Shown piece after piece: positions 4,983 to 33,975 of a DNA stretch of 64,000 bases. Below the pieces are notes generated by a model. The model saw only the letters and a list, made by a program, of their open reading frames with translations, ran no database searches and was not told where the DNA came from. Position 1 is the stretch's first letter, and every line of letters begins with the position of its first letter. The DNA is from Rhodocyclaceae bacterium (lineage in GTDB: Bacteria; Pseudomonadota; Gammaproteobacteria; Burkholderiales; Rhodocyclaceae): contig VMSX01000017.1 of the NCBI GenBank assembly GCA_013791905.1, positions 62,001 through 126,000 on the forward strand, written 5' to 3'. Both the position numbers and the translations under genes were made by a program.

Positions 4983-7820
4983 ATGACTGAAATGACATCT
5001 TCGAAACTCTTCCCTTCTTCCCGACGCCTGGCATGGGCAATGGGCTTGGCATTTGCAGTCGGGGTGCTTGCGCCCCAGGCTTCTTTTTCAGCCGACAGCA
5101 AGGCATCCAGGTATTACGAAGACGCCTTGGTACGTTATGAAAAGAAGGATATCGACGGAGCGATCATCCAGCTGAAAAACGCATTGCAAATCGACAACAG
5201 CCTGTTGCCGGTGCAAATGCTGCTGGGCAAGGCCCTGATGCAAAACGGTGAAGTGGCTGCCGCCGAGGTGGCCTTGACGGAAGCCCTGCGGTTGGGCGTC
5301 AATCGTGCCGAAGTCGTGATCCTCCTGGGCCAGGCTTATCTGGCGCAAGGCAAACACAAGCTCCTCTTCGAGCAACATCAGTTCGGCTTGACCGGTTTGC
5401 CTCCCACCGTGCAATTGCAACTGCTGCTGCTGCGCTCTGCCGCCCATGCCGATCTTGGCAATCTGCGCGAGGCATTGAAAGCAGTTGAAGATGCGCGGGC
5501 CATCGATGCGCGTGCGACTGAAGTCTGGCTTGCCGAGGTGCCGATTCGCATCCGTGCCCGCCAGTTCCGCGAGGCGAAGACTGCCGCAGAGCGGGCGCTC
5601 GCACTGGCCCCTGACTCCGCCGAGGCATGGTATCAAAAAGCTTCTGTTTCTCACGTGTCGGGAGAGTTGTCGGCGGCACTCGCGGCCTATGACCGCGCGC
5701 TCAAGCTCGATGCTGCCCACCTCGAGGCGCGCATTGCCCGCGCCGGCTTGTACATCGATCTCGGTCGCCAGTCGGATGCGGCCAGCGATGTCCGCGAACT
5801 CAAGCGGACGTCACCGCAAGAACCGCGTGCGGCTTACCTGCGCGCCTTGCTGGCCGAGCGTGACAACAAACCCGAAGAAGCCCGCCAGGCACTTCGGGAC
5901 CTGACCGGGCTGATCGATCCGGTGCCCATGGATTTCATCCGCTACCGGCCACAGATGCTCATGCTCAATGGTCTGGCGCACTTCGGACTCGACGAGCGCG
6001 AAAAAGCCAAGGGATATCTCGAAGCGTTTCAGCGGGTGCAGGGCAACACTGCGGCAGCCAAACTGCTGGCGCAGATCTATCTGGGCGAATCGAGAGCCGA
6101 TCGTGCCATCGAAGTTCTCGAAGCCTACCTGAAAGTTCAGCCAGCCGATGGTCAGGCCATGGTATTGCTGGGTTCCGCGTACATGTCGAAAGGACAGCAC
6201 GCGCGAGCGGTGTCCTTCATGAAACAGGCGCTGGAGACCCGCGACGCGCCAGAGTTCCGCACGGTGCTGGGCTTGAGCCTGATCCGCAGCGGCCAGGCGG
6301 TCAGCGCCATCCCCGAACTGGAAGCCGCCCTGAAATTGAATCCCGGCCAGACTCAGGCAGCCACGGCGCTCATTGCCTTGTATCTGAAGGCCGGCCAAAC
6401 GGCAAAGGCCGTCGCCCTTGCCGAGGGCCTGGTCAAACAACAGCCGGCCAATGCCGAGTTTCTCAATCTGCTCGGGGTCACGAAAAGGCACGCGGGCAGC
6501 CAGGCCGCCGCCAGAAAAGCCTTCGAGCAGGCCATCAAGCTGAACAACAAGCTGGTGTCGCCCAAGCTCAACTTGGCGCGCATCGAGATTGCCGAAAAAG
6601 CATTTGACGCCGCCGCTCTCCGTCTGGACACCATTCTCAGGGCCGACGACAAAAACACTGAAGCCATGTTTGAAATGGGCGCCCTGTCGGAGCAGCGCGG
6701 CCAGCTTCCCGAAGCCCAGCGTTGGCTGGAAAAGGCCGCCGATAGCGCCGGCCCCAAAGAAGTACGCTGGGCGCTTGCCTTGTCCGACTTTCATATGCGC
6801 CATGGAAAACCCGGGCCAGCCTTGGATGCGGCCAAGGTTGCCTCGTCCAAGGCACCGGAAGACTTGTCGGTGTTGATAATTCTTGCCAGGGTGCAACTGG
6901 CAAACAACGATAATGCCGGCGCAAAAAATACCTTGTCGACCGCCACGCGAGTCGCGGAGTTCAACCCCGCAGTTCAAGTACAGATCGCCCTGCTGCAGCT
7001 GGCCGCAAACCATCCTGCCGGCGCTGCCTACAGTCTCGAAAAGGCACTGTCCGGCCAGCCGGACTTTTTCCCCGCCCAGGTGCTGATGGCCGAAGTCGAA
7101 TTGCGCCAAGGAGAGGCGGCCAAGGCCGAAAAGCGCGCGCGCGATATCGTGGCGAAATATCCCAAACGGGCCATCGGTTACAGCCTGCTGGGCGACATCG
7201 CCCAGGCTCGCGGGCAAATCACGGAGGCACAGGAAGCCTATCGGCGCGCGCATCAGACGGAACCATCCACCGACACCTTGCTGCGACTATTCCGCGCCCT
7301 TGCCAGCAAGGACGACAAGTCGTCCCTGCAACTAGCCGAACAATGGATGAAATCCCACCCGCAAGATACATCCGTACTGAAGGCGCTGGCGGAAGGTTAC
7401 TTTCGGACCGGCAAACTTGCGGCTGCCCGAACGGCCTATGAAAATCTGCTCAAAATTACCCCGGATGATGGCGTGGCACTCAACAATCTAGCCAACGTGA
7501 TGCATCGCCTGAAAGACCCCGCTGCCGCCAGGATCGCGGAGCAGGCGGTTGCCAAAAACCCCGGCAACTCCTATGCTATTGATACATTGGGTTGGATTCT
7601 GCTTCAGACTGGCGAAACCGGTCGCGCGCTGCAACTGTTGCGCGATGCCCGTTTGCGCGCCCCGGGCAATCCTGAAATTCGTTATCACCTTGCGGTCGCA
7701 CTCGACAAGAGTGGCCGCAAGGCAGAAGCCAGAGAAGAGCTTGCCGAGGCATTGAAGGCCCGTGTCGCGTTTGAAGGAATCGAGGATGCGAGGAAGCTGG
7801 AAAAGGAATTGGGTAGATGA
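4983..7820 (+). CDS. PrsT-like TPR-repeat protein, signal peptide without lipobox
   Basis: This 945-residue protein is almost entirely tetratricopeptide repeats, in the PEP-CTERM TPR protein family (TIGR02917 type). The N-terminus is a signal peptide ending near ASFSAD, with no Cys, so signal peptidase I rather than II should process it. The repeats begin with YYEDALVRYEKKDIDGAIIQLKNAL, which resembles the first repeat of the lipoprotein PrsT encoded at 13440-16214 on the other strand. The protein is probably periplasmic and may scaffold polymer assembly or sorting. It lies directly after epsB and before the PEP-CTERM gene. Its exact role is unknown. Confidence 0.85.
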   Translation: MTEMTSSKLFPSSRRLAWAMGLAFAVGVLAPQASFSADSKASRYYEDALVRYEKKDIDGAIIQLKNALQIDNSLLPVQMLLGKALMQNGEVAAAEVALTEALRLGVNRAEVVILLGQAYLAQGKHKLLFEQHQFGLTGLPPTVQLQLLLLRSAAHADLGNLREALKAVEDARAIDARATEVWLAEVPIRIRARQFREAKTAAERALALAPDSAEAWYQKASVSHVSGELSAALAAYDRALKLDAAHLEARIARAGLYIDLGRQSDAASDVRELKRTSPQEPRAAYLRALLAERDNKPEEARQALRDLTGLIDPVPMDFIRYRPQMLMLNGLAHFGLDEREKAKGYLEAFQRVQGNTAAAKLLAQIYLGESRADRAIEVLEAYLKVQPADGQAMVLLGSAYMSKGQHARAVSFMKQALETRDAPEFRTVLGLSLIRSGQAVSAIPELEAALKLNPGQTQAATALIALYLKAGQTAKAVALAEGLVKQQPANAEFLNLLGVTKRHAGSQAAARKAFEQAIKLNNKLVSPKLNLARIEIAEKAFDAAALRLDTILRADDKNTEAMFEMGALSEQRGQLPEAQRWLEKAADSAGPKEVRWALALSDFHMRHGKPGPALDAAKVASSKAPEDLSVLIILARVQLANNDNAGAKNTLSTATRVAEFNPAVQVQIALLQLAANHPAGAAYSLEKALSGQPDFFPAQVLMAEVELRQGEAAKAEKRARDIVAKYPKRAIGYSLLGDIAQARGQITEAQEAYRRAHQTEPSTDTLLRLFRALASKDDKSSLQLAEQWMKSHPQDTSVLKALAEGYFRTGKLAAARTAYENLLKITPDDGVALNNLANVMHRLKDPAAARIAEQAVAKNPGNSYAIDTLGWILLQTGETGRALQLLRDARLRAPGNPEIRYHLAVALDKSGRKAEAREELAEALKARVAFEGIEDARKLEKELGR

Positions 7821-7903: not shown

Positions 7904-7919
7904 TGGCCCGTTTATTGCA
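7904..7919 (+). promoter_or_regulatory. Sigma-54 (-24/-12) promoter of the PEP-CTERM gene
   Basis: TGGCCCGTTTATTGCA matches the sigma-54 consensus TGGCAC-N5-TTGCA at all fixed positions but one, with correct GG-to-GC spacing. Transcription should start near 7930, about 28 nt before the ATG at 7958. An imperfect dyad, CTGT-N11-ACAG, at 7834-7852 lies at enhancer distance and could be an activator site. The window encodes PrsR, a sigma-54 activator of the PEP-CTERM system, which is the natural candidate. Binding by PrsR is inferred. Confidence 0.75.
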
Positions 7920-7957: not shown

Positions 7958-8719
7958 ATGAAATCCAGACTTTCGTGCATGGTGGTGGTTGTCGGAATGG
8001 CGTTGGCAAGCATGAGTGCTCATGCAGCGGTCGATTGGACATGGACGCTTAACGGCACGCCGACGGGTTCCAATCTTCCCGGGACAGCATCCGCAATGGG
8101 TTACTCGGCTTCGAGCAACACTACTGCGCTGGTGGCGACCAGCGGTAGCGGTTTGCCTGATATGACTTGGTACAGCGGTTCCGGGTTTGGGATATGCAGT
8201 CCGACACCCGGCGATCCGACCTGCAACTCACCCAATCATGCGGTGGATAACAAGGATGCTAAAGAGTCGATCGTGCTGAGTTTTGGCAGCAAGGTAACCT
8301 TGTCGTGGCTGGATATCGGGTGGAATGGCGGATACGATAGCGATCTGTCCGTTCTTGCTTACACCGGTACGGGCACTCCGGTGTCGAGTAGTTCTACTTA
8401 CAGTACTCTGCTCGCTAATGGCTGGTCGCTCGTGGGTCAATATGCGAACGTGCCTGTAAGTACATCTCTGACTACACCTAGTTTGAATCTGGGAACTACC
8501 CTGTCATCTAGTTACTGGATGATCGCTGCCTACAATTCGACTTTTGGTGGTGCTTGCACCGGTGGTGCTTGCGGTGATAGCAATGATTATGTGAAGATTT
8601 TTGCCGTTGCCGGCAATACAGCCTCAAACGGCGGGAAGGTGCCCGAACCAGCTGCCCTGTTGCTCTTTGGCACGGCGATAGCGGGGATTATTGGTTTGCG
8701 CCGGCGCCGCCCAGACTGA
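7958..8719 (+). CDS. PEP-CTERM sorting-signal protein (exosortase substrate)
   Basis: This 253-residue secreted protein has a signal peptide ending near AHAAVDW. It has a Ser/Thr/Gly/Asn-rich body suited to surface exposure and glycosylation. The C-terminal tripartite sorting signal is a VPEPAA motif, a hydrophobic helix (LLLFGTAIAGIIGL) and a basic RRRRPD tail. Exosortase A, encoded at 32413-33975, should recognise the PEP motif and cleave it at the inner membrane. ATG 7958 was chosen because GAGAAGGA lies just upstream and the sigma-54 promoter fits that leader; an in-frame ATG at 7919 overlaps the promoter. The function of the body is unknown. It is the only PEP-CTERM substrate I can see in the window. 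Confidence 0.9.
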   Translation: MKSRLSCMVVVVGMALASMSAHAAVDWTWTLNGTPTGSNLPGTASAMGYSASSNTTALVATSGSGLPDMTWYSGSGFGICSPTPGDPTCNSPNHAVDNKDAKESIVLSFGSKVTLSWLDIGWNGGYDSDLSVLAYTGTGTPVSSSSTYSTLLANGWSLVGQYANVPVSTSLTTPSLNLGTTLSSSYWMIAAYNSTFGGACTGGACGDSNDYVKIFAVAGNTASNGGKVPEPAALLLFGTAIAGIIGLRRRRPD

Positions 8720-8749: not shown

Positions 8750-9382
8750 ATGAACACACCGACCGAATCAACCAAGTTACCGCACGACGATAACCCGTCC
8801 GTGTCGAAGGCTGGGCGGCGGCGTTTCTTGGGGGCCGGGTCTGCGGTTGCCCCTGTTATTCTGACAATGCTGAGCCAGCCTGCTTTAGGTGTTACCTGCT
8901 TCACGCCATCGCGTTCGCTGTCGAAGAATACAAGTATTTCGCAGCAAGACAAGTATGGGCAATGCACGGGGGCGCAATCGCCGGGGAATTATTCAGCGCA
9001 GACCAGCCCCGGCATTCCCGCCTACTCCTGGCCTATCTCCCCGAGTACGCCCTTCCATCCAACTTTTGCGCAAGGTACCAGGACGGGCACCGTATTAACG
9101 AAAATAGTTAATAACATCGTGGTTAGCAAGACGATGCTGGAGGTGATGAACTTGCTTGGTAACGAGGATCCTGAAAAGATGGCGTTCCATTTGATCGGCG
9201 CCTATCTTAATTGCCTCGGTGGCGGCAGCTCGTCGATTTCACCCCTGGCCATGACACCGCAAGGAATTACATCCATCTGGGCCGAATGGGCGACGAAGGG
9301 ATATTACGTGCCCACTGCAAACGTCCAGTGGAACGGTACCCAAATCAAGAATTACCTGCTCAATAACGGCATCATAAGCTGA
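8750..9382 (+). CDS. Tat-signal hypothetical protein
   Basis: I do not recognise a named function for this 210-residue protein. The N-terminus carries a twin-arginine signal (AGRRRFLGAGSAVAPVILTML) with a cleavage region near PALG. The mature part has three Cys (VTC, GQC, LNC), a Ser/Thr-rich first third, and a C-terminal pattern GYYVPTANVQWNGTQI. ATG 8750 has AAGGA 6 nt upstream. The gene lies 30 nt after the PEP-CTERM gene, and its stop overlaps the start of the PqqD-like gene (TGATG). Co-transcription from the sigma-54 promoter is likely. It may be the substrate of the kinase and nucleotidyltransferase encoded downstream, which is speculation. Confidence 0.7.
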   Translation: MNTPTESTKLPHDDNPSVSKAGRRRFLGAGSAVAPVILTMLSQPALGVTCFTPSRSLSKNTSISQQDKYGQCTGAQSPGNYSAQTSPGIPAYSWPISPSTPFHPTFAQGTRTGTVLTKIVNNIVVSKTMLEVMNLLGNEDPEKMAFHLIGAYLNCLGGGSSSISPLAMTPQGITSIWAEWATKGYYVPTANVQWNGTQIKNYLLNNGIIS

Positions 9383-9654
9383 TGGGTGAGTTGCCCGCTT
9401 TTCCAGCCATGGAGGAGCGTTATGCATTTCATACTTGGCCCGATGGGTGCGCGGTATTCGATCGCTTCAGTGGCGACACGCATATTCTGGACACTTTTTC
9501 AGCAGTGTTGTTTCTGTCTGGCCTGCAGGTGTCGCCAGCCGTGATTGAAAAGCTTCGGCTTCCTGTAATATCCGATGAAAATCTTTCGTCCCGACTCGAT
9601 GATGCCAGACGACGTCTGGAGAAGCTGAAACTACCTGCCGCCCCGCCATCGTGA
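9382..9654 (+). CDS. PqqD-like protein (RRE fold), HPr-kinase-associated type
   Basis: This 90-residue protein resembles the PqqD-related family found with HprK-like kinases (HPr-rel-A system). PqqD folds are RiPP recognition elements that bind a leader peptide and present it to a modifying enzyme. Visible features are the AVFDRFSGDTHILDTFSA block typical of PqqD-like proteins (residues about 24-41) and a helical C-terminus. It overlaps the upstream gene (TGATG) and the downstream kinase gene (GTGA), so it is made together with both. Peptide binding is inferred from the family, and no ligand is shown. Confidence 0.75.
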   Translation: MGELPAFPAMEERYAFHTWPDGCAVFDRFSGDTHILDTFSAVLFLSGLQVSPAVIEKLRLPVISDENLSSRLDDARRRLEKLKLPAAPPS

Positions 9655-10622
9655 AAGAAGAAACCGCAGTTGTTGTTGGAGATCTCAGCCTGCAACAATT
9701 GCACGATGCCCTGAAGCAGGGTGTCTTTGCCGTGCGGACGGGTCCGCTCCTGTTCAGGATTCAAAGTGATTTCGAGGATGTAGCACGCTCGATTCATGCG
9801 CTTTATTCTGGACACCCATGCCAGATCGCGCCGGAATTTTCCGATTTTCATGTCGAAGTGCGCGCACCGCTTAATCTGCGCCGCTGGTTTCGTCCGCAAG
9901 CGGAGTTTTTTATTGACGGTGAGCCGCCCTTTGAACCTTTACCGCGGGATCAGGCGCCGGCCCTGCTCGAGTGGGGAATGAACTGGACCATCGCAGCCTC
10001 TTGCCACCAGTGGTTCACCCTTCACGCCGCATCGCTTGAGCGCGACGGCCTTGCGGTCATCCTTCCGGCACCACCGGGCTCCGGGAAAAGCACGCTGTGT
10101 GCTGCCCTTGCCTTGCGCGGCTGGCGTTTGTTGTCCGATGAATTGACGCTGCTCGATCCGAATTCCCTTTGCGCCAATGCGCTTGCGCGACCGATCAACC
10201 TGAAGAATGCGTCGATCGACCTGATGCGCAAATTCGCACCGACCGCCATCTGGTCGCCTGAAAGCTATGACACGCAAAAGGGGCGGGTCGCACATCTGTG
10301 CCCGCCTGTGGATAGCGTCCGCCGCATGGCCGACAAGGCAGAGCCGCGCTGGGTCGTTTTTCCGAAATATGTTCCCGATGCAGATCCGTTGCTCACGCCG
10401 CGCTCGAAGACACAGACATTCATGCCACTGGCGGAGAACGCCTTTAATTACGGCACCCTTGGCGAACCAGGATTCGACGCGATAGCCCGGCTGCTCGATC
10501 AATGCAGTTGTTATGACTTCATCTATAGCCGGCTTGAAGATGCGCTGGAGGTTTTCGAGTGGTTGGCAGCTACAAGCGGGTTAAACGCACAGGGGCAGCA
10601 AAGCTCCGCCGAGGCGCAATGA
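9651..10622 (+). CDS. HprK-related kinase
   Basis: This 323-residue protein resembles the C-terminal kinase domain of HPr kinase/phosphorylase. A P-loop PPGSGKST is at about 141-148, preceded by HAASLERDG, and an acidic SDE follows at 162-164 where HprK has its catalytic acidic pair. The first 110 residues are specific to this subfamily. Related kinases phosphorylate serines in proteins or, in some lasso-peptide clusters, in a peptide. It starts with GTG overlapping the PqqD-like stop, and its own stop overlaps the next start (ATGA). No canonical HPr (PtsH) gene is nearby, so the substrate is probably something else. Confidence 0.8.
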   Translation: MKEETAVVVGDLSLQQLHDALKQGVFAVRTGPLLFRIQSDFEDVARSIHALYSGHPCQIAPEFSDFHVEVRAPLNLRRWFRPQAEFFIDGEPPFEPLPRDQAPALLEWGMNWTIAASCHQWFTLHAASLERDGLAVILPAPPGSGKSTLCAALALRGWRLLSDELTLLDPNSLCANALARPINLKNASIDLMRKFAPTAIWSPESYDTQKGRVAHLCPPVDSVRRMADKAEPRWVVFPKYVPDADPLLTPRSKTQTFMPLAENAFNYGTLGEPGFDAIARLLDQCSCYDFIYSRLEDALEVFEWLAATSGLNAQGQQSSAEAQ

Positions 10623-11707
10623 CCCAGAGTTGCGGCAAGTTATTGCTGGATGCGGTGCGCACGCCAGCCATGGCCGTCACGCTCGACTTGCGGTCGTGGG
10701 ACGATCTGCTCAGACTCGCACGGCGCGCAAACTTGATCAGTCGTCTGGCCGAGGGGATTGATCAGGCAGGTGTGCTGAATAAACTGCCTGCCCCTGTCCG
10801 TCCGCACCTGATTGCGGCGTCGGCGCTCGCACAACATCAGCGCAGAGCTGTCATATGGGAAACGCGGCATATCGGCACAGCGCTTAGTGCTCTGGGTATT
10901 CCAATCGTATTGCTCAAAGGGGCGGCCTATTCGATGGCCGGTCTGCAGGCGGCGACCGGGCGGCTCTACGGGGACGTTGATATCCTGGTGCCCGCAACAC
11001 GAATCAACGAGGTCGAGGCGGCGCTGATGCTGCATGGCTGGAGCGCCGGACATGTGGATGCCTACGACAATAGATACTACCGGCGATGGATGCACGAACT
11101 GCCGCCGATGGTCAATATCAAGCGGGGTACTGTTGTCGATGTTCACCACAACATCCTGCCGCTTACTGCGCGCAACCACCCTTCGGCGGAGAAGTTGCTC
11201 GCGGCATCCCTGGCCCTCCCGGAGGCGCCATTCCACGTGCTGTCACCTTGCGACATGGTCATCCACTGCGCGACCCACCTCTTTCATGAAGGTGAACTCA
11301 ACAATGGATTGCGCGACCTGTTCGATCTTGATGCGCTGGTTCAGGAATATGCCGAGAACGATGCGTCATTTTGGACGACATTGCCCGAGCGCGCGAAGGA
11401 ACTCGACCTGGAATGGCCTTTGCGGTTGGCTTTTCGCTATCTGGAACGATTTCTTGGCACCCGCATCCCCGAACAGGCAAAGACCTCGGTGAAACAGTCG
11501 CCGATCCTGGCTAGTCTGCGCGATGTCATGTACCTTCCGGGCTTCCTGCCTGACCATCCCTTGTGCAGTGGCTACCGGTCGTTCCTGGCCAGAGGCCTGC
11601 TTTACCTGCGGGGGCACTACCTACGCATGCCCTTACGCTTGCTCGCCTGGCATCTGGGGCGCAAGGCATTCATACGGCTGTACAAGAACAAGAGCCGCAG
11701 CTGCTGA
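10619..11707 (+). CDS. Nucleotidyltransferase-family protein (NTP_transf_5 type)
   Basis: This 362-residue protein shows the minimal nucleotidyltransferase core: VLLKGAAYSMAGL (about 97-109) followed by GRLYGDVDILV, with the metal-binding DxD at Asp119/Asp121. The long helical C-terminus contains HCATHLFHEGELNNGLRDLFDLD. This matches the uncharacterised NTP_transf_5 family (PF14907). It would transfer a nucleotide or a related group to an unknown acceptor. The start at 10619 was chosen for the ATGA overlap with the kinase gene, although the frame is open further up. It ends 4 nt from the convergent protease gene. Confidence 0.75.
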   Translation: MTQSCGKLLLDAVRTPAMAVTLDLRSWDDLLRLARRANLISRLAEGIDQAGVLNKLPAPVRPHLIAASALAQHQRRAVIWETRHIGTALSALGIPIVLLKGAAYSMAGLQAATGRLYGDVDILVPATRINEVEAALMLHGWSAGHVDAYDNRYYRRWMHELPPMVNIKRGTVVDVHHNILPLTARNHPSAEKLLAASLALPEAPFHVLSPCDMVIHCATHLFHEGELNNGLRDLFDLDALVQEYAENDASFWTTLPERAKELDLEWPLRLAFRYLERFLGTRIPEQAKTSVKQSPILASLRDVMYLPGFLPDHPLCSGYRSFLARGLLYLRGHYLRMPLRLLAWHLGRKAFIRLYKNKSRSC

Positions 11708-11711
11708 TTTC

Positions 11712-12494
11712 TCAGGGGCCGACCTTACCCAGCAGTTCGATGAGATGGCTGGCCGGAATTGCATAACTGATGCCAGAGGGTTTTTCCAGTATGGCTTCCT
11801 TGGTCGCTTTCACGAATACCATGTTGATGATGCCAAGCACTTCGCCACTCTCGGCGTCATAGAGCGGGCCGCCGCTGTTGCCGGGGTAGGCGGTGGCATC
11901 CAGTTGAAAGATGGGAAAAGCGCCACTGCGCAGGCGGCGGATTGACTTGTCCTTGAGTTCCCGCGCGTTGCCGCCGGGCAGAACAATCGGTGTGATCGAC
12001 GAAATGACGCCGCGATGTGTCACCGGCGAAAAACCCAGGGCGCCGCCAATCGGGAACCCGGTAAATGCGACGGCCTGGCCTTCGCGGACCGCTTCGGATG
12101 GCCGCAGCACCAAGGCCGGCAGGGGTGGGCCGGTCATGCGCAACACGGCCAGATCGTGCTCGGTGTCACTTACCAATAAGCGCACCTCCTGCGGGCGAAC
12201 CTCGGCCCCGTTGCGCGTCAGTACCATCAGAATTTCTTGAGTGTCCCCACCCTCAAACCTTGGAATAACGTGGGCATTGGTGGCGATCAGACTGCCGTCC
12301 CCGACGGCGAAACCGGTGCCGCGCATGAGGAATTGCGGGCTGCGCAATTTACTGAAAGTGCCGACGACGACGACCGATGGTTTGACTCGAACAATGGTTT
12401 CCGGCAGGGCGGCGGCGGCAATGCCAACAGCCAGCAGTGGCAGCATGCCGACCAACAGCGCTACGGCCATGCCTTTAAACATGCGGTCGATCAT
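11712..12494 (-). CDS. Trypsin-like serine protease (S1 family), periplasmic
   Basis: This 260-residue protein has a signal peptide or membrane anchor (residues 8-30) and a chymotrypsin-fold protease domain. The catalytic triad is intact: His75 in ATNAHVI, Asp114 in TEHDLAVL and Ser207 in YPGNSGGPL. There is no PDZ domain, so it is not a full DegP/DegS. It probably acts in the periplasm. Its start overlaps the stop of the lytic transglycosylase gene (ATGA), so it is the last gene of the minus-strand prs operon. A role in quality control or processing of exported matrix proteins is inferred from context. Confidence 0.85.
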   Translation of the reverse strand: MIDRMFKGMAVALLVGMLPLLAVGIAAAALPETIVRVKPSVVVVGTFSKLRSPQFLMRGTGFAVGDGSLIATNAHVIPRFEGGDTQEILMVLTRNGAEVRPQEVRLLVSDTEHDLAVLRMTGPPLPALVLRPSEAVREGQAVAFTGFPIGGALGFSPVTHRGVISSITPIVLPGGNARELKDKSIRRLRSGAFPIFQLDATAYPGNSGGPLYDAESGEVLGIINMVFVKATKEAILEKPSGISYAIPASHLIELLGKVGP

Positions 12495-13423
12495 GACTTG
12501 ACGCGCAGCTTGCGGTGGAGAATTTTCTCCAGTTCAGGCGAAGGATCGGTAATGGCGGCGTCGAAGGGGTGTTCCTGATGGCGAAACACTTCGAGGATGC
12601 GCTTAACGTAGTGGCGAGTTTCAGGATAGGGTGGAATGCCGCGGTAGCGGTTCACCGCACCTTCGCCGGCGTTGTAGCCCGCCGCGACCAGCGCCACGTC
12701 GCCTCTGAAATAGGCCAACAGCCAACGCAGGTAGGCCAGCCCGCCGCGCACATTCTGTTCCGGGTCGAAGGGCTTGCGCACATTGAAGCGTGCCGCGGTT
12801 TCCGGGATCAGTTGCATCAGGCCCTGCGCGTTTTTGTGCGAGACGGCCACCGGATTGAAGTTCGACTCGGTGCTTGCCACGGCCAGTGCCAGCCGTGGGA
12901 TGATGCCGTATTCGGGCGCCAGACGACGCACCAACTCCGCCATCAGCCGTTGCTTCTCGGTGCTAAATTCGATGTCGGTGGCGTCACCGTGCGGATCTGG
13001 TACCTTGGGTTCCTGCATGCACGGCGGCGGCTCCGTTGCTGCCGGCCCGACAAAGCGCAGCATTCGCAATGACTGGGTATGGCCTTGCGAAGCGGCGAGA
13101 TGAAAAAAGAAAGCCGCCAAGGCATCGTCGCGCGGCATACCTCGGCCATTGGCGTACATCCAGCCCAAGTTGTACTGGGCTTCCAGATCGCCAGCCCGCG
13201 CCCCGTCGCAATAAAGTTTGACCGCCTGGCCAGTATCTTTGGGAACACCCTCGCCATGTTCGAAGGCGCGGGCCTGTTCGCGCAGCACACGCAACTCGTC
13301 CGCACTTGGGGGTTCGGCCGCAAAAGTCGGCGCTGGCGGGACGGCGCAAAATAGGACTAGCGCCGCCGCAAGCCGAAATCTGCCGCATTGAAATTTTCCG
13401 CCCGGCCGTCCCATCGTCGCCAT
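12491..13423 (-). CDS. Lytic transglycosylase (SLT) with Sel1-like repeats
   Basis: This 310-residue protein has a signal peptide ending near PTFAAEP, a Sel1/TPR-like region (about 45-125, AQYNLGWMYANGRGMPRDDALA) and a C-terminal SLT domain. The catalytic Glu186 is in ASTESNFNP, followed by AQGLMQLIPETAARF and AAGYNAGEGAVNRY. It should cleave peptidoglycan and may open space for envelope assemblies such as the secretion machinery. It starts 17 nt after prsT. An exact copy of the 24-bp dispersed repeat (13323-13346) codes for its signal-peptide junction. A second in-frame ATG lies at codon 4. Confidence 0.87.
   Translation of the reverse strand: MATMGRPGGKFQCGRFRLAAALVLFCAVPPAPTFAAEPPSADELRVLREQARAFEHGEGVPKDTGQAVKLYCDGARAGDLEAQYNLGWMYANGRGMPRDDALAAFFFHLAASQGHTQSLRMLRFVGPAATEPPPCMQEPKVPDPHGDATDIEFSTEKQRLMAELVRRLAPEYGIIPRLALAVASTESNFNPVAVSHKNAQGLMQLIPETAARFNVRKPFDPEQNVRGGLAYLRWLLAYFRGDVALVAAGYNAGEGAVNRYRGIPPYPETRHYVKRILEVFRHQEHPFDAAITDPSPELEKILHRKLRVKS
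13323..13346 (+). repeat. 24-bp dispersed repeat, exact copy 1
   Basis: This copy is identical over 24 bp (core GTCGGCGCTGGCGGGACG) to the one at 43432-43455. It lies inside the lytic transglycosylase gene, where the reverse strand encodes the CAVPPAPTF part of the signal-peptide region. Related copies are at 32418-32441 (reverse, 22/24), 39150-39173 (21/24), 42211-42234 (22/24) and 44934-44957 (20/24). Confidence 0.7.
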
Positions 13424-13439
13424 AATGATTCCGCGAAGC

Positions 13440-16214
13440 CTACAAACTCTTTAATAGCTCAGAAACCTCTGCCTGACCAGGAAACTTGTCGCCAAGCTTG
13501 GCCAGCGTCTCGAGTTCCTGCTTGGCTTCCGCTTTCTTTCCTGCCTTGATCAGGCCCCGGGCGAGGTTGAGGCGGATATCCGCCGCCTGCGGCGCCAGGG
13601 CGACGGCCTTGCCCAGCAAGTCAAGTCCGCGCTCCACATTGCCTTTATCGACAAGCAGCCGGCCCAGCGTGTCCATGATCGCTGGGTGGTTGGGCGCCAG
13701 CTTGTTGGCCTGCTCGGCATGCTCGATGGCCTTGGGATCGCCCATTCTGCCAAGCGACCAGGCCAGATTGTTCAGCAGGACGGGATTGTTGGGTTGAGTG
13801 CTCAGCAGGGCACGATATTGCGCCACGGCGGCAGGGTAGTCCTTACGCTTGTTGGCCGAGTCGGCAATGAATAAGCGAAATACGTCATCCTTGGGATGCG
13901 CCTTGATCCAGGCATCCGCAAGCTGCTTGGCCTCGGCACCCTTGCCGTCCGCGAACAGCACGGCATGCAAACGCCCTGTCAGATCGGCGGATGCCGCGAC
14001 CTTCAAGCCGGCACGGTAAGCTGCGGCAGCTTGCGGCCAAGCCCGCTGTGCAACCTGAATATCCCCTTCGAGCAGGTGCCCGGCAATTTCCTTCGGGTGG
14101 CTCTTCTGCATGTCGCGCGCGCGCGCCAAGGCTTCCGGTATTCGGCCGGCGTCGACGTCGAGCATGATCATGGCGCGGTGCATCGGTAACGAATCAGGTT
14201 GCAGCGCAAGGCCCTTGGTCAGGCTGTTGCGCGCGCCTTCTTTGTTCTTTTCGGCGACCTGAATCTCAGCCATGCGCAGATAGGGTTGCGCTGTGCCCGG
14301 CAGCATGGCGGCCAGCTTGCCGTAGATCGCGAGTGCCTGGTTGGTGTCGCCGGTCAGTTGCATCACGCGGCCGGCGGCGTCCATGATCTCCGGTCGGTCC
14401 GGGAAGGTGGCCATGGCCTCCTGTACCGCCGTCAGCGCCTTCTTGTTGTCATTGGTGCGCAGATAGAGTCCAACCAGGGCGAGTCGCGGCGCAGGATCGT
14501 CGGGGACCGCATTCACGGCCTTGGTCAGCAACCCGGCAATTTCTTCGACAGTGGCGCCACCTTGCGCCCGCAACTCGGCAATGGCCAGCATCGCCTGTAG
14601 ATTCTTGGGGTCCTTGGCCAGCACGGCCTCGAAGCGCTTGCGCGCCTCATCAGGCTTCTTGTTGGCCAGGTCGAGACGGGCGAGGTTGGCCGCGGCTGGC
14701 AGGAAGGTTGGCGCCAATTCAAGCGCGCGCTCGAAACTCTTGCGGGCGCCCGCCGTGTCGCCCTTGCCCAGCAAGGCGCCGCCGCGAAGATTGTGGACGA
14801 CCGGGTTGTCAGGCTGTTTTTTCTCGAAGCTGGCGATGGCCTTCAATGCCTTGTCGAACTGCTTCTGCTGCATGTTCGAGGCAATCAGCGCCATATCTGC
14901 CATGACCCCGGTGTCAGCGGCGGCAATCTCCTCAAGTTCGGCAAAAGCCTGATCCGTGCGGCCCATCTGCATTTTTGCCAGTGCCAGCGCCGTTTGCGTA
15001 CGCGCGTTCTGCGGGTCGGTTTTCGCGGCTTTGGTGAAAAACTCGGCGGCAGCGGCTGCATCGCCACTCTGCATGTAAGCTTCACCGGCAAGCGTGAGCC
15101 AGGCCGCAGCGGTCTCCTTGCCCTGCAAAACCGGTTGTAGCGTTGCCAGAGCCTTTTCCGGTTGGCCGCTGCGCAGATAGGACCGCGCCAGCGCGCGTCT
15201 GCTGGAATCGAGTCCCGGTGCCCGTTGCAACGCCTTGGACAGGTATTCCTGCGCCTGCACATCCGAGCGGCTGTCATAAGCGATGATGCCGGCAAGTTGC
15301 AGGCCTTGGGGGTTATCGGGCTGCACCTTGAGCAAGGCATCCACTGCGCTCTTCGCTGCCACGGCGTTCTTCTGCGCATAGGCAACCATGCCCTGCATAT
15401 ACAGCGTCAATGGCACCTTCGCCGCAACGTTTTGCATCGCCTCCAGTCGCTTGGCGGCCAGGTCGGTCTGGTTTTTCCGCAAGTGCATCATGATCATCGC
15501 AGCCTGGGCAGAAACCATCTGAGGCCGAATTTCAACCACTTTCTGATAGGCGGCAATGGCTTCGTCATCCTTGCCCTCGGCGCGGAGCAGGCTTGCCTTG
15601 AAATTCCAGGCCTCGGCGTTCTGCGGCGCCTTGGCGAGAATCGAGTCCACCATTTCCTTGGCCTGTGGGAGGTCCTGTTCGGCAGCCTTCAGTTGGGCCA
15701 AGCCAAGCAGCGCCGGGGCGAAGTCGTTTTTGCTGGCTACCGCTTCATTGAAAGCGTTGCGGGCGGCTTCAAGTTTCCCTTGCGTGGCATAAACTTGCCC
15801 CAGCGTGGTCTTGAAATCAGCCTTGGCTTCGGCTGAGATGAGCGCTACTTTGCTCAGGTCCTCGATCACCTTCTTGTACTGCCCCTGGGCCAGCAGCGCC
15901 CTGGCGAGAACCGGCGTTATCTGGTCGGGCGAAAACTTCAGTTCCATTGCCTTGCGCAGCTCGATTTCAGCCGCGGCGGGATCGCCGGACTCCAGCAGCA
16001 CACGGCCAAGCAGAAAGCGCGCTTCACCCGAATCCGGCGCCTTCATCAGGACATTCTTCAGTTGGATGGTCGCTGCCGCGTGATCGTTCTTTTCAAGATA
16101 ACTCTTGGCCGAAACCAGCATTTCCTCTGGCGATCCCTTGCCGCAGCCAGCGGCCAGCAGAAGCACTGTCAGCGCGGCAATGCGGACAATGCGGGTATGA
16201 GTATAAGTAGTCAT
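13440..16214 (-). CDS. prsT: PrsT, PEP-CTERM system TPR-repeat lipoprotein
   Basis: This protein of about 924 residues belongs to the PrsT family. From the ATG at 16214 the signal peptide is MTTYTHTRIVRIAALTVLLL with lipobox LLAAGC (Cys24), so it is a lipoprotein. The rest is a long array of TPR repeats (for example EKNDHAAATIQLKNVLMKAP). An in-frame ATG at 16253 would add 13 residues that weaken the signal peptide. It lies downstream of prsK and prsR in the same orientation and upstream of the transglycosylase and protease genes. It is thought to support PEP-CTERM sorting or polymer export. A second homologue without a lipobox is encoded at 4983-7820. Confidence 0.9.
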   Translation of the reverse strand: MTTYTHTRIVRIAALTVLLLAAGCGKGSPEEMLVSAKSYLEKNDHAAATIQLKNVLMKAPDSGEARFLLGRVLLESGDPAAAEIELRKAMELKFSPDQITPVLARALLAQGQYKKVIEDLSKVALISAEAKADFKTTLGQVYATQGKLEAARNAFNEAVASKNDFAPALLGLAQLKAAEQDLPQAKEMVDSILAKAPQNAEAWNFKASLLRAEGKDDEAIAAYQKVVEIRPQMVSAQAAMIMMHLRKNQTDLAAKRLEAMQNVAAKVPLTLYMQGMVAYAQKNAVAAKSAVDALLKVQPDNPQGLQLAGIIAYDSRSDVQAQEYLSKALQRAPGLDSSRRALARSYLRSGQPEKALATLQPVLQGKETAAAWLTLAGEAYMQSGDAAAAAEFFTKAAKTDPQNARTQTALALAKMQMGRTDQAFAELEEIAAADTGVMADMALIASNMQQKQFDKALKAIASFEKKQPDNPVVHNLRGGALLGKGDTAGARKSFERALELAPTFLPAAANLARLDLANKKPDEARKRFEAVLAKDPKNLQAMLAIAELRAQGGATVEEIAGLLTKAVNAVPDDPAPRLALVGLYLRTNDNKKALTAVQEAMATFPDRPEIMDAAGRVMQLTGDTNQALAIYGKLAAMLPGTAQPYLRMAEIQVAEKNKEGARNSLTKGLALQPDSLPMHRAMIMLDVDAGRIPEALARARDMQKSHPKEIAGHLLEGDIQVAQRAWPQAAAAYRAGLKVAASADLTGRLHAVLFADGKGAEAKQLADAWIKAHPKDDVFRLFIADSANKRKDYPAAVAQYRALLSTQPNNPVLLNNLAWSLGRMGDPKAIEHAEQANKLAPNHPAIMDTLGRLLVDKGNVERGLDLLGKAVALAPQAADIRLNLARGLIKAGKKAEAKQELETLAKLGDKFPGQAEVSELLKSL

Positions 16215-16316
16215 ATGCGGTATGAGCCCCCGAAAATGTGATGAGGAAAACATGACTTCCCACGCCGGCTTGCGGTCGAAAGGATCTTGGGGAAGTTAAG
16301 GCCAATGTGCGCCATG

Positions 16317-31207: not shown

Positions 31208-32416
31208 ATGGCCGACCTTCTCTATCTGGCCCATCGTTTGCCCTACCCGCCCAACAAGGGCGACAAGGTTCGCTCGTTCAATCTGCTCAAGCATCTGGCA
31301 AAAAAGCATCGCGTCCATCTCGGCACCTTCATTGACGATCCAGATGACGAGGTCCATCTTGAGAAGGTACGCAGCTATTGCGCCACCATGCACGTTGCCC
31401 GGCTCACTCCGCGGATCGCCAAACTGCGCAGCCTGACCGGGCTGCTGAGCGGCGAGGCGCTGTCGCTACCCTACTACCGTAATGCCGCCCTGCGCGACTG
31501 GGCGATGCGCACCTGTGCCGACAAACGCATCGAGCGCGCCGTTGTCTTTTCTTCGGTGATGGCCAGCTATGTTCCAGATATGCTGCGGATGCCGACCCTG
31601 GTGGACTTTGTTGACGTCGATTCGGCCAAGTGGACCCAGTACGCCACCACTCACAGTTGGCCGCTGTCCTGGCTTTACCGCCGGGAAGGCGAACGCCTGC
31701 TGGCGTGGGAGCGCGCTGTAGCAGCGCAGGCAACTCATTCGTTCTTCGTCACCGAGGCCGAGGCCGACATGTTTCGTCGCTCTGCCCCGGAAAGTGCGGA
31801 CCGCGTCGAGGCCATCGGCAATGGAGTCGACGCCGAATTCTTTTCGCCGGAACACCCTCTGGCATCGCCGTTCAGCGCAGATGAAATCCCCATAGTCTTC
31901 ACCGGGGCCATGGACTACTGGCCCAACATCGATGCCGTCGTGTGGTTCGTCGGCGAGGTTTTGCCCCACCTGCGCCGTCAACATCCCAAGGTGCGCTTTT
32001 ACGTTGTCGGGCGGAGTCCGGATGCGACAGTACAGGCTCTGGCGAAAGACAACGCAACCGTCGTCACCGGTACGGTAGACGACGTGCGTCCATATCTGAA
32101 ACATGCCGCAGTGGTCGTCGCGCCACTGCGCATCGCCCGTGGCATTCAGAACAAGGTACTCGAAGCCATGGCCATGGCGCGACCGGTGATCGCTGCTACT
32201 GCCTGCGCCGGTCCCATCGCTGCCGAGCGCGGCAGTGAACTGCTTGCTGCCGCGACCCCTGATGACTACCTATCCCACATCGACAAGCTGCTCGCCGACC
32301 CAACTCGCGCCGATGCCATCGGACAAGCTGCGCGCCGGCGTATCCTGACCAGCTACAGTTGGGATGCCCACCTTTCGCGCATCGACCGCTACCTAGAATC
32401 TCAGGAGGCCACATGA
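31208..32416 (+). CDS. Glycosyltransferase, XrtA system (TIGR03087 type)
   Basis: This 402-residue GT-B glycosyltransferase starts MADLLYLAHRLPYPPNKGDKVRSFNLL, typical of the PEP-CTERM sugar transferase 1 family. The C-terminal GT1/GT4-like domain includes FTGAMDYWPNIDAV and the donor-binding region PLRIARGIQNKVLEAMAMARPVIAT. It should add one residue of the repeat unit at the cytoplasmic face. Its stop overlaps the xrtA start (ATGA). Confidence 0.9.
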   Translation: MADLLYLAHRLPYPPNKGDKVRSFNLLKHLAKKHRVHLGTFIDDPDDEVHLEKVRSYCATMHVARLTPRIAKLRSLTGLLSGEALSLPYYRNAALRDWAMRTCADKRIERAVVFSSVMASYVPDMLRMPTLVDFVDVDSAKWTQYATTHSWPLSWLYRREGERLLAWERAVAAQATHSFFVTEAEADMFRRSAPESADRVEAIGNGVDAEFFSPEHPLASPFSADEIPIVFTGAMDYWPNIDAVVWFVGEVLPHLRRQHPKVRFYVVGRSPDATVQALAKDNATVVTGTVDDVRPYLKHAAVVVAPLRIARGIQNKVLEAMAMARPVIAATACAGPIAAERGSELLAAATPDDYLSHIDKLLADPTRADAIGQAARRRILTSYSWDAHLSRIDRYLESQEAT

Positions 32417-33975
32417 ACGCCGTCTCACCAGCGCCGACTTTTGCGTGGCAGCGCGCGCTTACAACACTGACTGTTGTCCTGCTGGTTCTGGTTGGCCTTT
32501 ACCACGAGACCGGACTGGCCATGGTGAGCATCTGGGCGCGATCCGAAACCTTCGCACATGCCTTCCTGGTGCCGCCGATCACCCTCTGGCTGATCTGGGA
32601 GAAGCGCCACGTCCTCGCCCGGCAGCAACCCCGCCCGAGCCTGTGGCTGGCCCTGCCGCTTGCCGGACTCGGCTTCGCCTGGCTGCTTGGCGAGATGGCG
32701 GCAGTCAATGCCGTGACCCAGCTGGCCTTCACCTGCATGCTGATCCTCGCCGTACCGTTGGTGATTGGCGTGCCGGCAGCTCGGCTGATCGCCTTCCCCC
32801 TCGGCTTTCTACTGTTTGCCGTACCGATTGGCGAGTTCCTCTTGCCCAAACTGATGGACTGGACCGCCGCCGCCACCGTCTTCGGCCTCCGTGCCTCCGG
32901 GATTCCCGTTTTCCAGGAAGGCCTGCACTTCGTGATTCCCTCCGGCCGCTGGTCGGTCGTCGAGGCCTGCAGCGGCGTACGTTATCTCATCGCCTCGCTC
33001 ACCGTGGGCACATTGTTCGCGTACCTCAATTACCGCTCGACCAAACGCCGGCTGATTTTTGTCGGCATCGCGATCCTGGTACCCCTGGTGGCCAACTGGA
33101 TTCGCGCCTACATGATTGTCATGCTCGGCCATTACTCCGGCAACAAAATTGCCGTCGGTGTTGACCACCTGATTTACGGCTGGGTGTTTTTCGGCATTGT
33201 CATCATGATCATGTTCGTCATCGGCATGCGCTGGAGTGAACCCAGTGCCGACCTTGACATGACGGTCGCACCAGCCAGTGCCAATACCTCTGCCGCAACC
33301 ACTGGCCGCCTGTTCGCCGCCAGCCTGATGTTTGCCGCTGTCGTTGCAGCGCCCCATGCAGTGCTGTGGGTCCTGACGTCAGGCGCAACGCTGCCGCCGC
33401 CCCGACTCGACCCGCAGACCCTGGCCACCAGCGGTTGGCAACTTGCCGCCACGCCCATGTCCGAATGGAAGCCGGCGTTCCAAAATCCATCCGGCGAAAT
33501 GAACGTCACATTGACGGACGGCGAACGCCGGGTCGGCGTATATATCGGCTACTATCGCCAGCAGAACTACGAGCGCAAGCTGGTCAGCTCCAGCAATGTT
33601 CTTGTCAGCGGCACTGACCAGCACTGGGCGCAAGTTTCACAAGGATTCCGAACCATAACGCTTGACGGGCAGGCGGTGAACGTGCGCAGCGGACGCCTGC
33701 GCAGCAATGTCATGACGCTCCTGGGGCAGGGCGATACACAGTTGGTGGCATGGCACTGGTACTGGATCAACGGCCATGTCACGACCAGCGACTACGTTGG
33801 CAAGGGCTGGCTGGCGATCTCAAGACTCATGGGGCGCGGCGACGATTCCGCCGGCGTCGTGCTCTATGCACCGGAGAACCAGCCCGGTGGCGCAGAGGCC
33901 GCGCTGCAGGACTTCCTGACACGCGGCGGCAGCAGCATTGCCGCCATTCTGGCAAACGCAAAGCAGCAGCGCTGA
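32413..33975 (+). CDS. xrtA: Exosortase A fused to EpsI domain
   Basis: This is the central sorting enzyme of the window, 520 residues. Residues 1-275 form the eight-helix exosortase core with the Cys-Arg-His triad: Cys186 in VEACSGVRY, Arg231 in NWIRAYMIV and His252 in VDHLIYGW. After further hydrophobic segments, residues about 335-520 form the EpsI domain (YIGYYRQQNYERKLVSS, WHWYWINGH). XrtA recognises PEP-CTERM tails and is thought to cut and transfer the protein at the membrane. ATG 32413 has a strong AGGAGG site and overlaps the previous stop. Codons 3-10 lie within a diverged copy of the 24-bp dispersed repeat. All catalytic residues are present. Confidence 0.95.
   Translation: MNAVSPAPTFAWQRALTTLTVVLLVLVGLYHETGLAMVSIWARSETFAHAFLVPPITLWLIWEKRHVLARQQPRPSLWLALPLAGLGFAWLLGEMAAVNAVTQLAFTCMLILAVPLVIGVPAARLIAFPLGFLLFAVPIGEFLLPKLMDWTAAATVFGLRASGIPVFQEGLHFVIPSGRWSVVEACSGVRYLIASLTVGTLFAYLNYRSTKRRLIFVGIAILVPLVANWIRAYMIVMLGHYSGNKIAVGVDHLIYGWVFFGIVIMIMFVIGMRWSEPSADLDMTVAPASANTSAATTGRLFAASLMFAAVVAAPHAVLWVLTSGATLPPPRLDPQTLATSGWQLAATPMSEWKPAFQNPSGEMNVTLTDGERRVGVYIGYYRQQNYERKLVSSSNVLVSGTDQHWAQVSQGFRTITLDGQAVNVRSGRLRSNVMTLLGQGDTQLVAWHWYWINGHVTTSDYVGKGWLAISRLMGRGDDSAGVVLYAPENQPGGAEAALQDFLTRGGSSIAAILANAKQQR
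32418..32441 (-). repeat. 24-bp dispersed repeat, diverged copy in reverse orientation
   Basis: The reverse strand matches the 24-bp element at 22 of 24 positions. It encodes AVSPAPTF at the N-terminus of exosortase A. The exact copy in the lytic transglycosylase gene, read in the same coding sense, gives the near-identical AVPPAPTF. Confidence 0.55.

Follow-up and report, generated by a model that had tools for sequence, protein, structure and literature searches.

A twin-arginine signal protein is the candidate substrate of a cassette encoding a PqqD-fold protein, an HprK-like kinase and an NTP_transf_5 nucleotidyltransferase

We analysed a 64,000-nucleotide stretch of contig VMSX01000017.1 from a Rhodocyclaceae bacterium (the window). 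Positions 8750–11707 hold four overlapping genes, encoding a twin-arginine translocation (Tat) signal protein that we call X, a PqqD-fold protein resembling a recognition element (RRE) of ribosomally synthesized and post-translationally modified peptides (RiPPs), an HprK-like kinase, and an NTP_transf_5 nucleotidyltransferase. On balance we favour the reading that this cassette both encodes and modifies a single exported protein, X, whose leader would be bound and whose serines would be phosphorylated and then decorated by the NTP_transf_5 enzyme before export by the Tat pathway. Judged from sequence, X is the conserved first gene of the cassette and probably its substrate. The features of the cassette are as follows.

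8750–9382, forward strand: X, the Tat-signal protein and proposed substrate, starting at ATG 8750 with GTG 8747 as an alternative start
8816–8890, forward strand: twin-arginine signal RRRFLGAGSAVAPVILTMLSQPALG, residues 24–48 of X (P0002), with an invariant RR; putative leader for binding by the RRE-like protein
8909–8935, forward strand: proposed acceptor motif S55-RSL-S59-KNT-S63 (SxxxSxxxS), from the X alignment and motif statistics
9382–9654, forward strand: gene for the PqqD-fold, RRE-like protein (P0003), from family score and predicted fold
9651–10622, forward strand: gene for the HprK-related kinase A (TIGR04352), from family score and active-site residues
10077–10094, forward strand: kinase P-loop GSGKST, residues 143–148, with G143, G145, K146 and T148 in 61/61 loci and S147 in 59/61
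10137–10142, forward strand: kinase acidic pair D163-E164, in 61/61 loci
10619–11707, forward strand: gene for the NTP_transf_5 nucleotidyltransferase (PF14907; P0005), from family score and Asp conservation

The genes are joined at TGATG (X and PqqD-like), GTGA (PqqD-like and kinase) and ATGA (kinase and NTP_transf_5). The kinase scores 369 bits against TIGR04352 (HprK_rel_A; cut-off 200), which places it among the HPr-rel-A kinases, and the nucleotidyltransferase scores 196 bits against PF14907. The PqqD-like protein scores 32.3 bits against TIGR04353 (E 1.5e-7), 2.7 bits short of the cut-off of 35. Its predicted fold and gene position fit the TIGR04353 family despite the low score, and 13 of 17 scanned PqqD-like proteins match that model at E 0.01. 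An AlphaFold2 (AF2) model of the protein has a bbb-aaa order of strands and helices and a mean confidence (pLDDT) of 87. Its top three Foldseek matches in the PDB are lasso-peptide RRE TbiB1-leader complexes (probability 0.97–0.99, TM score 0.53–0.56, E 0.025–0.057), and the protein is predicted to share the three-stranded winged-helix fold of these leader-binding RREs. A comparison of the kinase with PDB sequences gave nothing useful. Both enzymes keep their active-site residues in 61/61 loci, as read from aligned sequences; for the nucleotidyltransferase these are a K, a G, an R and three Asp (D119, D121 and D174 in P0005, which are D146, D148 and D201 in the longer frame used for the conservation count).

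Conservation was assessed across 83 kinase loci, made up of the window, 20 named contigs, 40 class-sample genomes, 2 plasmids and 20 phylum-sample genomes. The last group was hand-picked from 51 kinase genomes and over-samples genomes lacking an exosortase (11/20), so no rate is drawn from it. A kinase genome is one with an HprK_rel_A match over cut-off; sub-threshold matches, seen in 180 of 370 genomes at E 0.001 where 41 genomes pass the cut-off, are uncounted. An X leader lies upstream of the kinase in 76/83 loci (leader profile, E 0.05), a count that includes one marginal match, L062 (E 0.04, contig edge), which we discount. Among the seven misses, L005 and L017 have less than 250 nucleotides upstream, L124 has an X recognized by eye, and L108, L118, L119 and L121 have no X by the leader profile. 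A nucleotidyltransferase homologue is present in the fetched stretch of 80/83 loci (61/61 and 19/22), and a PqqD-like gene is found by profile in 71/83 (54/61 and 17/22); six of the seven PqqD-like misses among the first 61 loci have an open frame of 75–87 amino acids at that place. By simple BLAST clustering, X is the sole further gene family found in most loci (33/61), the next cluster reaching 18/61. Two plasmids also carry cassette genes: all four lie beside pst/phoU and glmU/glmS on a Sphingomonas parapaucimobilis plasmid (L105), and X, kinase and nucleotidyltransferase lie beside 2-aminoethylphosphonate genes on a Vibrio alfacsensis plasmid (L104), where the interval between X and kinase has no annotated PqqD-like gene and the profile detects none. 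Cultured carriers of the cassette include Methylomonas sp. WSC-6 (L003) and Roseateles violae (L010).

X itself has no family match in Pfam or NCBIfam at E 1. Searches with the mature parts of 26 aligned X proteins, including that of the window, produced matches for single members only, none better than E 0.013, and no convincing Pfam match. A steryl-sulfatase, the sole PDB-sequence match of the X profile (E 0.02), was not taken as real. X is built from a short hydrophilic start and a twin-arginine signal, followed in type I proteins by a serine motif and a small domain. The type I leader has a consensus of about RRRxxKAxLxxAPVxMTLxSRPxLG with an unusually conserved core, the mature N-terminus follows CtxSGxxSGNLS (S55-RSL-S59-KNT-S63 in the window), and the small domain runs CxGxSPGYWK ... 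HxVAALLNA. In an alignment of 17 X proteins, in which the window sits one repeat off from most rows, the only invariant columns are the RR, two motif serines and one Asn. A larger alignment covers 53 of 54 X proteins, with L004 dropped because it is cut by a contig end. The RR is present in 17/17 aligned proteins and the window's genome encodes TatC (236 bits), which together mark X as a predicted Tat substrate that would be exported. A strict SxxxSxxxS near the mature N-terminus occurs in 38 of 76 X proteins, against a mean of 3.6 and a maximum of 9 in 1000 shuffles; this count is if anything low, because some X proteins were scored at their first rather than best leader match and L062 is included.

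Type II X proteins, whose leader is related (e.g., GVPAIVTLQSGAALA), lack the serine repeat and end in tails like SCWTSF. A C-x-x-S in the last 26 residues is found in 21 of 76 X proteins and in 9 of 736 neighbouring open frames, the latter taken from a crude longest-frame caller and including shadow frames. Many type I proteins have the same C-x-x-S at their mature N-terminus. Automatic typing of the 76 X proteins gave 47 type I, 20 type II, one with both (L057) and eight unassigned; four were then typed by hand as type I (L007, L010, L060 and L066) and four as type II (L057, and L063, L082 and L085 from their leader and degenerate tail). With L062 dropped and L124 added by eye, a kinase tree of 76 rows carries 52 type I and 24 type II proteins. 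X type changes only twice on this tree, against a mean of 20.6 when types are shuffled, and none of 500 shuffles gave as low a number. In the type II loci L055, L057, L065, L067, L068 and L069 the nucleotidyltransferase lies upstream on the other strand. The idea that loss of SxxxSxxxS goes with loss of the nucleotidyltransferase was rejected, as type II loci of the class sample keep the enzyme and have the C-terminal motif instead.

A mature-X profile finds 36 places in 34 of 370 class genomes, 31 of them adjoining the kinase. A leader-plus-motif profile gives a match running from position 2 to at least 39 in 30 of 41 kinase genomes and in 0 of 39 exosortase-positive, kinase-negative genomes; since 21 kinase loci went into this profile, those of its matches that adjoin the kinase are in part expected by construction. 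With any match at E 0.01 allowed, the counts are 36/41 and 4/39, the four being weak and partial. A second X copy, with a Tat signal and CTLSGMMSGNVS, sits away from the cassette in one kinase genome (G277:C20). The PGYW-LLNA domain occurs C-terminally, without the serine motif, in four other proteins (L092–L095; frames of 302 to 1352 amino acids), where matches start after the serine motif; two come from kinase genomes (G013 and G232) and two do not (G073 and G077). In G157:C27, from a genome lacking an over-cut-off family member, a Tat-leader match (10821–10904) and a sub-threshold HprK_rel_A match (13589–13795, E 4e-12) are 2.7 kb apart, possibly marking a sister kinase system.

The cassette is enriched in exosortase genomes and not restricted to them. 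In the class sample (370 genomes), 41 have the kinase, 126 an exosortase (E 0.001) and 37 both (Fisher p 2.6e-15); in the phylum sample (397 genomes), the figures are 51, 95 (E 1e-10) and 36 (p 2.4e-14). Co-occurrence was taken by comparing lists, the two samples share some genomes, and the p values ignore relatedness. The 15 exosortase-negative kinase genomes of the phylum sample all fall outside the window's class; among the 11 that were fetched, an X was assigned in 10, in each case of type II. By our own count, 16 class-sample genomes carry kinase and exosortase on one contig, 11 of them within 60 kb. An earlier note on this DNA, made from sequence alone, held that its proposal of a modification module would fall if the same trio of genes were found mostly away from exosortase genomes, with a clear other substrate. 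With 37/41 and 36/51 kinase genomes bearing an exosortase, the outcome is mixed: the two are linked and the link is not obligatory.

Taken together, these observations suggest the following mechanism. The Tat signal of newly made X would also serve as its leader peptide. Like a lasso RRE, the PqqD-fold protein would bind this leader while X is still in the cytoplasm, keep X from the Tat translocon, and hand it to the HprK-like kinase. The kinase would phosphorylate the conserved serines, which may be S55, S59 and S63 in the window and the serine of the C-terminal C-x-x-S in type II proteins. Next, the NTP_transf_5 enzyme would add a further group to the phosphate, as reported for PsmN, and this group would most likely be a sugar or a nucleotide. 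The modified protein would leave through Tat and its signal would be clipped. Export only once X has matured in the cytoplasm would account for the use of Tat. The result would be a small tagged protein beyond the cytoplasm, in cells that mostly have an exosortase. We infer each of these points: that X is modified, which serine is used, the chemistry, the chaperone role, the export and any role at the surface. The earlier note had described four genes with start/stop overlaps and no adjacent HPr gene, and both descriptions stand: the overlaps are read directly from the sequence, and the same genome has its HPr at C5:223881 and, on C20, a true HPr kinase (307 bits). Its view of a module acting on an exported protein rather than on HPr gains support from the 76/83 loci with an X leader, the acceptor-like motifs and the separate HPr kinase, and its choice of the Tat protein as a candidate substrate is strengthened by the 0/39 kinase-negative genomes with a leader-plus-motif match.

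Several observations weigh against this mechanism. Plain co-inheritance within an operon would likewise make X type track the kinase tree. Eleven of 41 kinase genomes lack a match spanning signal and motif, ten of them having type II or truncated X proteins and one (G097) a type I protein. Because the motifs sit at opposite ends of X, one enzyme family must act at both ends, and the type II tails of L063, L082 and L085 have no Cys. An AF2 model of X from 17 sequences reached a pLDDT of only 40.5, the PqqD-like protein scores under the TIGR04353 cut-off, and no Foldseek match of its model reaches E 0.001. The second step is uncertain: in the study of the clusters for linear polyphosphorylated peptides (LPP; PMC13381572), the NTP transferase was inactive in a heterologous host, and a review allows that an enzyme other than PsmN may add the hexose.

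Other explanations fit parts of the same evidence. X may be an exported sensor or effector that is co-inherited with the enzymes, while kinase and nucleotidyltransferase have a different protein as target, either in the cytoplasm or in a polysaccharide pathway. Regulation of exopolysaccharide enzymes by kinases encoded near their genes is common, the window cassette lies inside an XrtA cluster, and modification of X is itself deduced from sequence. We nevertheless consider this rather unlikely, since the invariant columns of X are just the RR, two motif serines and one Asn, the mature domain occurs without the motif in four other proteins, an RRE-like fold implies a leader-bearing substrate, and no further family but X reaches most loci (33/61 by simple BLAST clustering; next 18). 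A different product, in which serine phosphorylation or nucleotidylation leads to elimination and a nearby Cys closes a thioether ring, leaving a cross-linked protein with no phosphate or sugar tag, would account for the recurrence of C-x-x-S, which many type I proteins have at the mature N-terminus and type II proteins at the C-terminus. It seems very unlikely, because the type I X proteins of Hahella and Alteromonadaceae have the serines and no Cys there, L063, L082 and L085 are without the type II Cys, and no further enzyme cluster (as grouped without tool annotation) is found in more than 18/61 loci. That the kinase is a second HPr kinase/phosphatase in nitrogen or carbon phosphotransferase system signalling appears extremely improbable: its distant P-loop similarity to TIGR00679 (12.8 bits) stands against a true HPr kinase elsewhere in the genome, an HPr gene away from the cassette, and constant pairing with NTP_transf_5 and usually with a PqqD-like gene.

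A PEP-CTERM gene of the XDP1 family lies directly upstream of X in the window, preceded by a promoter-like site.

7904–7919, forward strand: sigma-54-type promoter-like site TGGCCCGTTTATTGCA, an exact pattern match with putative promoter use
7958–8719, forward strand: XDP1-family PEP-CTERM gene, in a frame open from 7919 whose ATG 7958 yields a signal peptide

The XDP1 product scores 159 bits against NF041927, and its gene ends at 8719, 30 nucleotides before the ATG of X, as the earlier note had it. That the kinase modifies XDP1, tying the cassette to exosortase sorting, would suit this spacing, at which the two may share a transcript. It is hardly credible given the other loci, as a PEP-CTERM-like gene lies directly upstream of X in 1/83, the window itself (a count made by searching the fetched stretches, which differ in length, with a simple C-terminal pattern), the genome has nine PEP-CTERM matches, and 15 of 51 phylum-sample kinase genomes have no exosortase match at E 1e-10. 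XDP1 is on this count a neighbour, probably outside the conserved cassette, and we rejected the PEP-CTERM protein that the earlier note had offered as a possible substrate. As for the note's sigma-54-like promoter, the window holds three exact matches to the pattern, the site at 7904–7919 among them. Allowing one mismatch raises the count to 21, where 15.8 would be expected; 12 of 100 shuffles get as far as 21, so by itself the pattern lacks significance. If the site is used, XDP1 would have to start at ATG 7958 and not at 7919.

The wider window is an XrtA/PEP-CTERM exopolysaccharide region, with EpsB-type transferase, two PrsT, PrsR, PrsK, chain-length, deacetylase and FemAB-type genes and XrtA itself at 32359–33975. 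The cassette sits between two divergent PrsT tetratricopeptide repeat proteins, which score 575 and 858 bits and are encoded on opposite strands (4983–7820 and 13440–16253). The other strand just after the cassette (11712–13423) encodes a lytic transglycosylase and a trypsin-like protease related to MarP/DegP. A protease of this kind seems to be the representative of a single-linkage cluster, grouped without tool annotation, that contains one of the window's genes and occurs in 18/61 loci. The serine repeat of type I X proteins might be an attachment or priming site for the XrtA-linked exopolysaccharide, with X as a protein anchor of the matrix. The kinase and nucleotidyltransferase would then build a sugar-phosphate on the serines, Tat would export the primed X, and the polysaccharide would be grown on or joined to it. 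We think this distinctly unlikely; if it were true, the LPP clusters of Bacillota, also found in capsule loci, would be a Gram-positive counterpart.

NCBIfam names the kinase and PqqD parts of the cassette the "HPr-rel-A system" (TIGR04352 HprK_rel_A, TIGR04353 PqqD_rel_X). These names came without substrate or function in the records returned, and X and the nucleotidyltransferase lie outside the two models. No description of the system or its function was found in the open-licence PMC literature searched, and what is new here is X as conserved first gene and probable substrate. A named gene system for which we found no described function thus gains a conserved candidate substrate and candidate modification sites, which makes it testable. 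If our preferred reading is true, a protein-modification step is added to the biology of exosortase and exopolysaccharide bacteria. The proposed role of the PqqD-like protein also recalls the Tat proofreading chaperones of redox enzymes, small proteins believed to attach to a Tat signal and to hold export back while the cargo matures. The cassette differs from these in having a PqqD/RRE fold, and in kinase and nucleotidyltransferase modification in place of cofactor insertion.

There is also a likeness to RiPP machinery. PsmK phosphorylates the C-terminal Ser of pseudomycoidin, and PsmN is required for one or two hexoses there (PMC9266682, PMC8498205), although one of these two reviews allows a host enzyme as the sugar adder. 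The systems of paeninodin and pseudomycoidin (PadeK, PsmK, PsmN) therefore resemble the cassette in an HprK-like kinase acting on a C-terminal Ser, to be compared with type II X, in a nucleotidyltransferase linked to hexoses on the phosphate, and in a discrete RRE (B1). Their substrates are lasso peptides, whereas the substrate proposed here is a Tat protein. Among 25 window genes compared with NCBIfam, no lasso cyclase, B2 protease or short precursor was reported, and a lasso cluster identity was rejected for lack of cyclase or protease among the scanned genes. The LPP clusters (lppAKBSDN), first noticed inside capsule loci, likewise bring together an RRE, an HprK-like kinase and an NTP transferase, and the kinase puts several phosphates on core Ser 3, beside the leader cleavage site (PMC13381572). 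The cassette shares this combination, with a discrete RRE. LPP precursors are 35–200 amino acids long and lose their leaders in a signal-peptidase-like manner; the clusters have a dedicated SpI peptidase, an MsbA-like exporter and a YxxPxVL-type leader (PMC13381572), where the cassette has a Tat signal instead. Neither an SpI-type leader peptidase nor an MsbA-like exporter is present in the window cassette or its scanned neighbouring genes. LPP clusters occur in Bacillota, and the HPr-rel-A cassette in Pseudomonadota, mostly with an exosortase. The earlier note was right that this is not a standard RiPP cluster, and the likeness to RiPP machinery exceeds its account (PMC13381572). The candidate acceptor sites of X, one after the cleaved signal and one near the C-terminus, resemble the two positions used by LPP and lasso kinases. 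We infer that the cassette is best read as applying to a Tat-exported protein the RRE, HprK and nucleotidyltransferase toolkit known from paeninodin, pseudomycoidin and LPP; if so, that toolkit extends from small peptides to such a protein, with the Tat signal serving as a RiPP-style leader.

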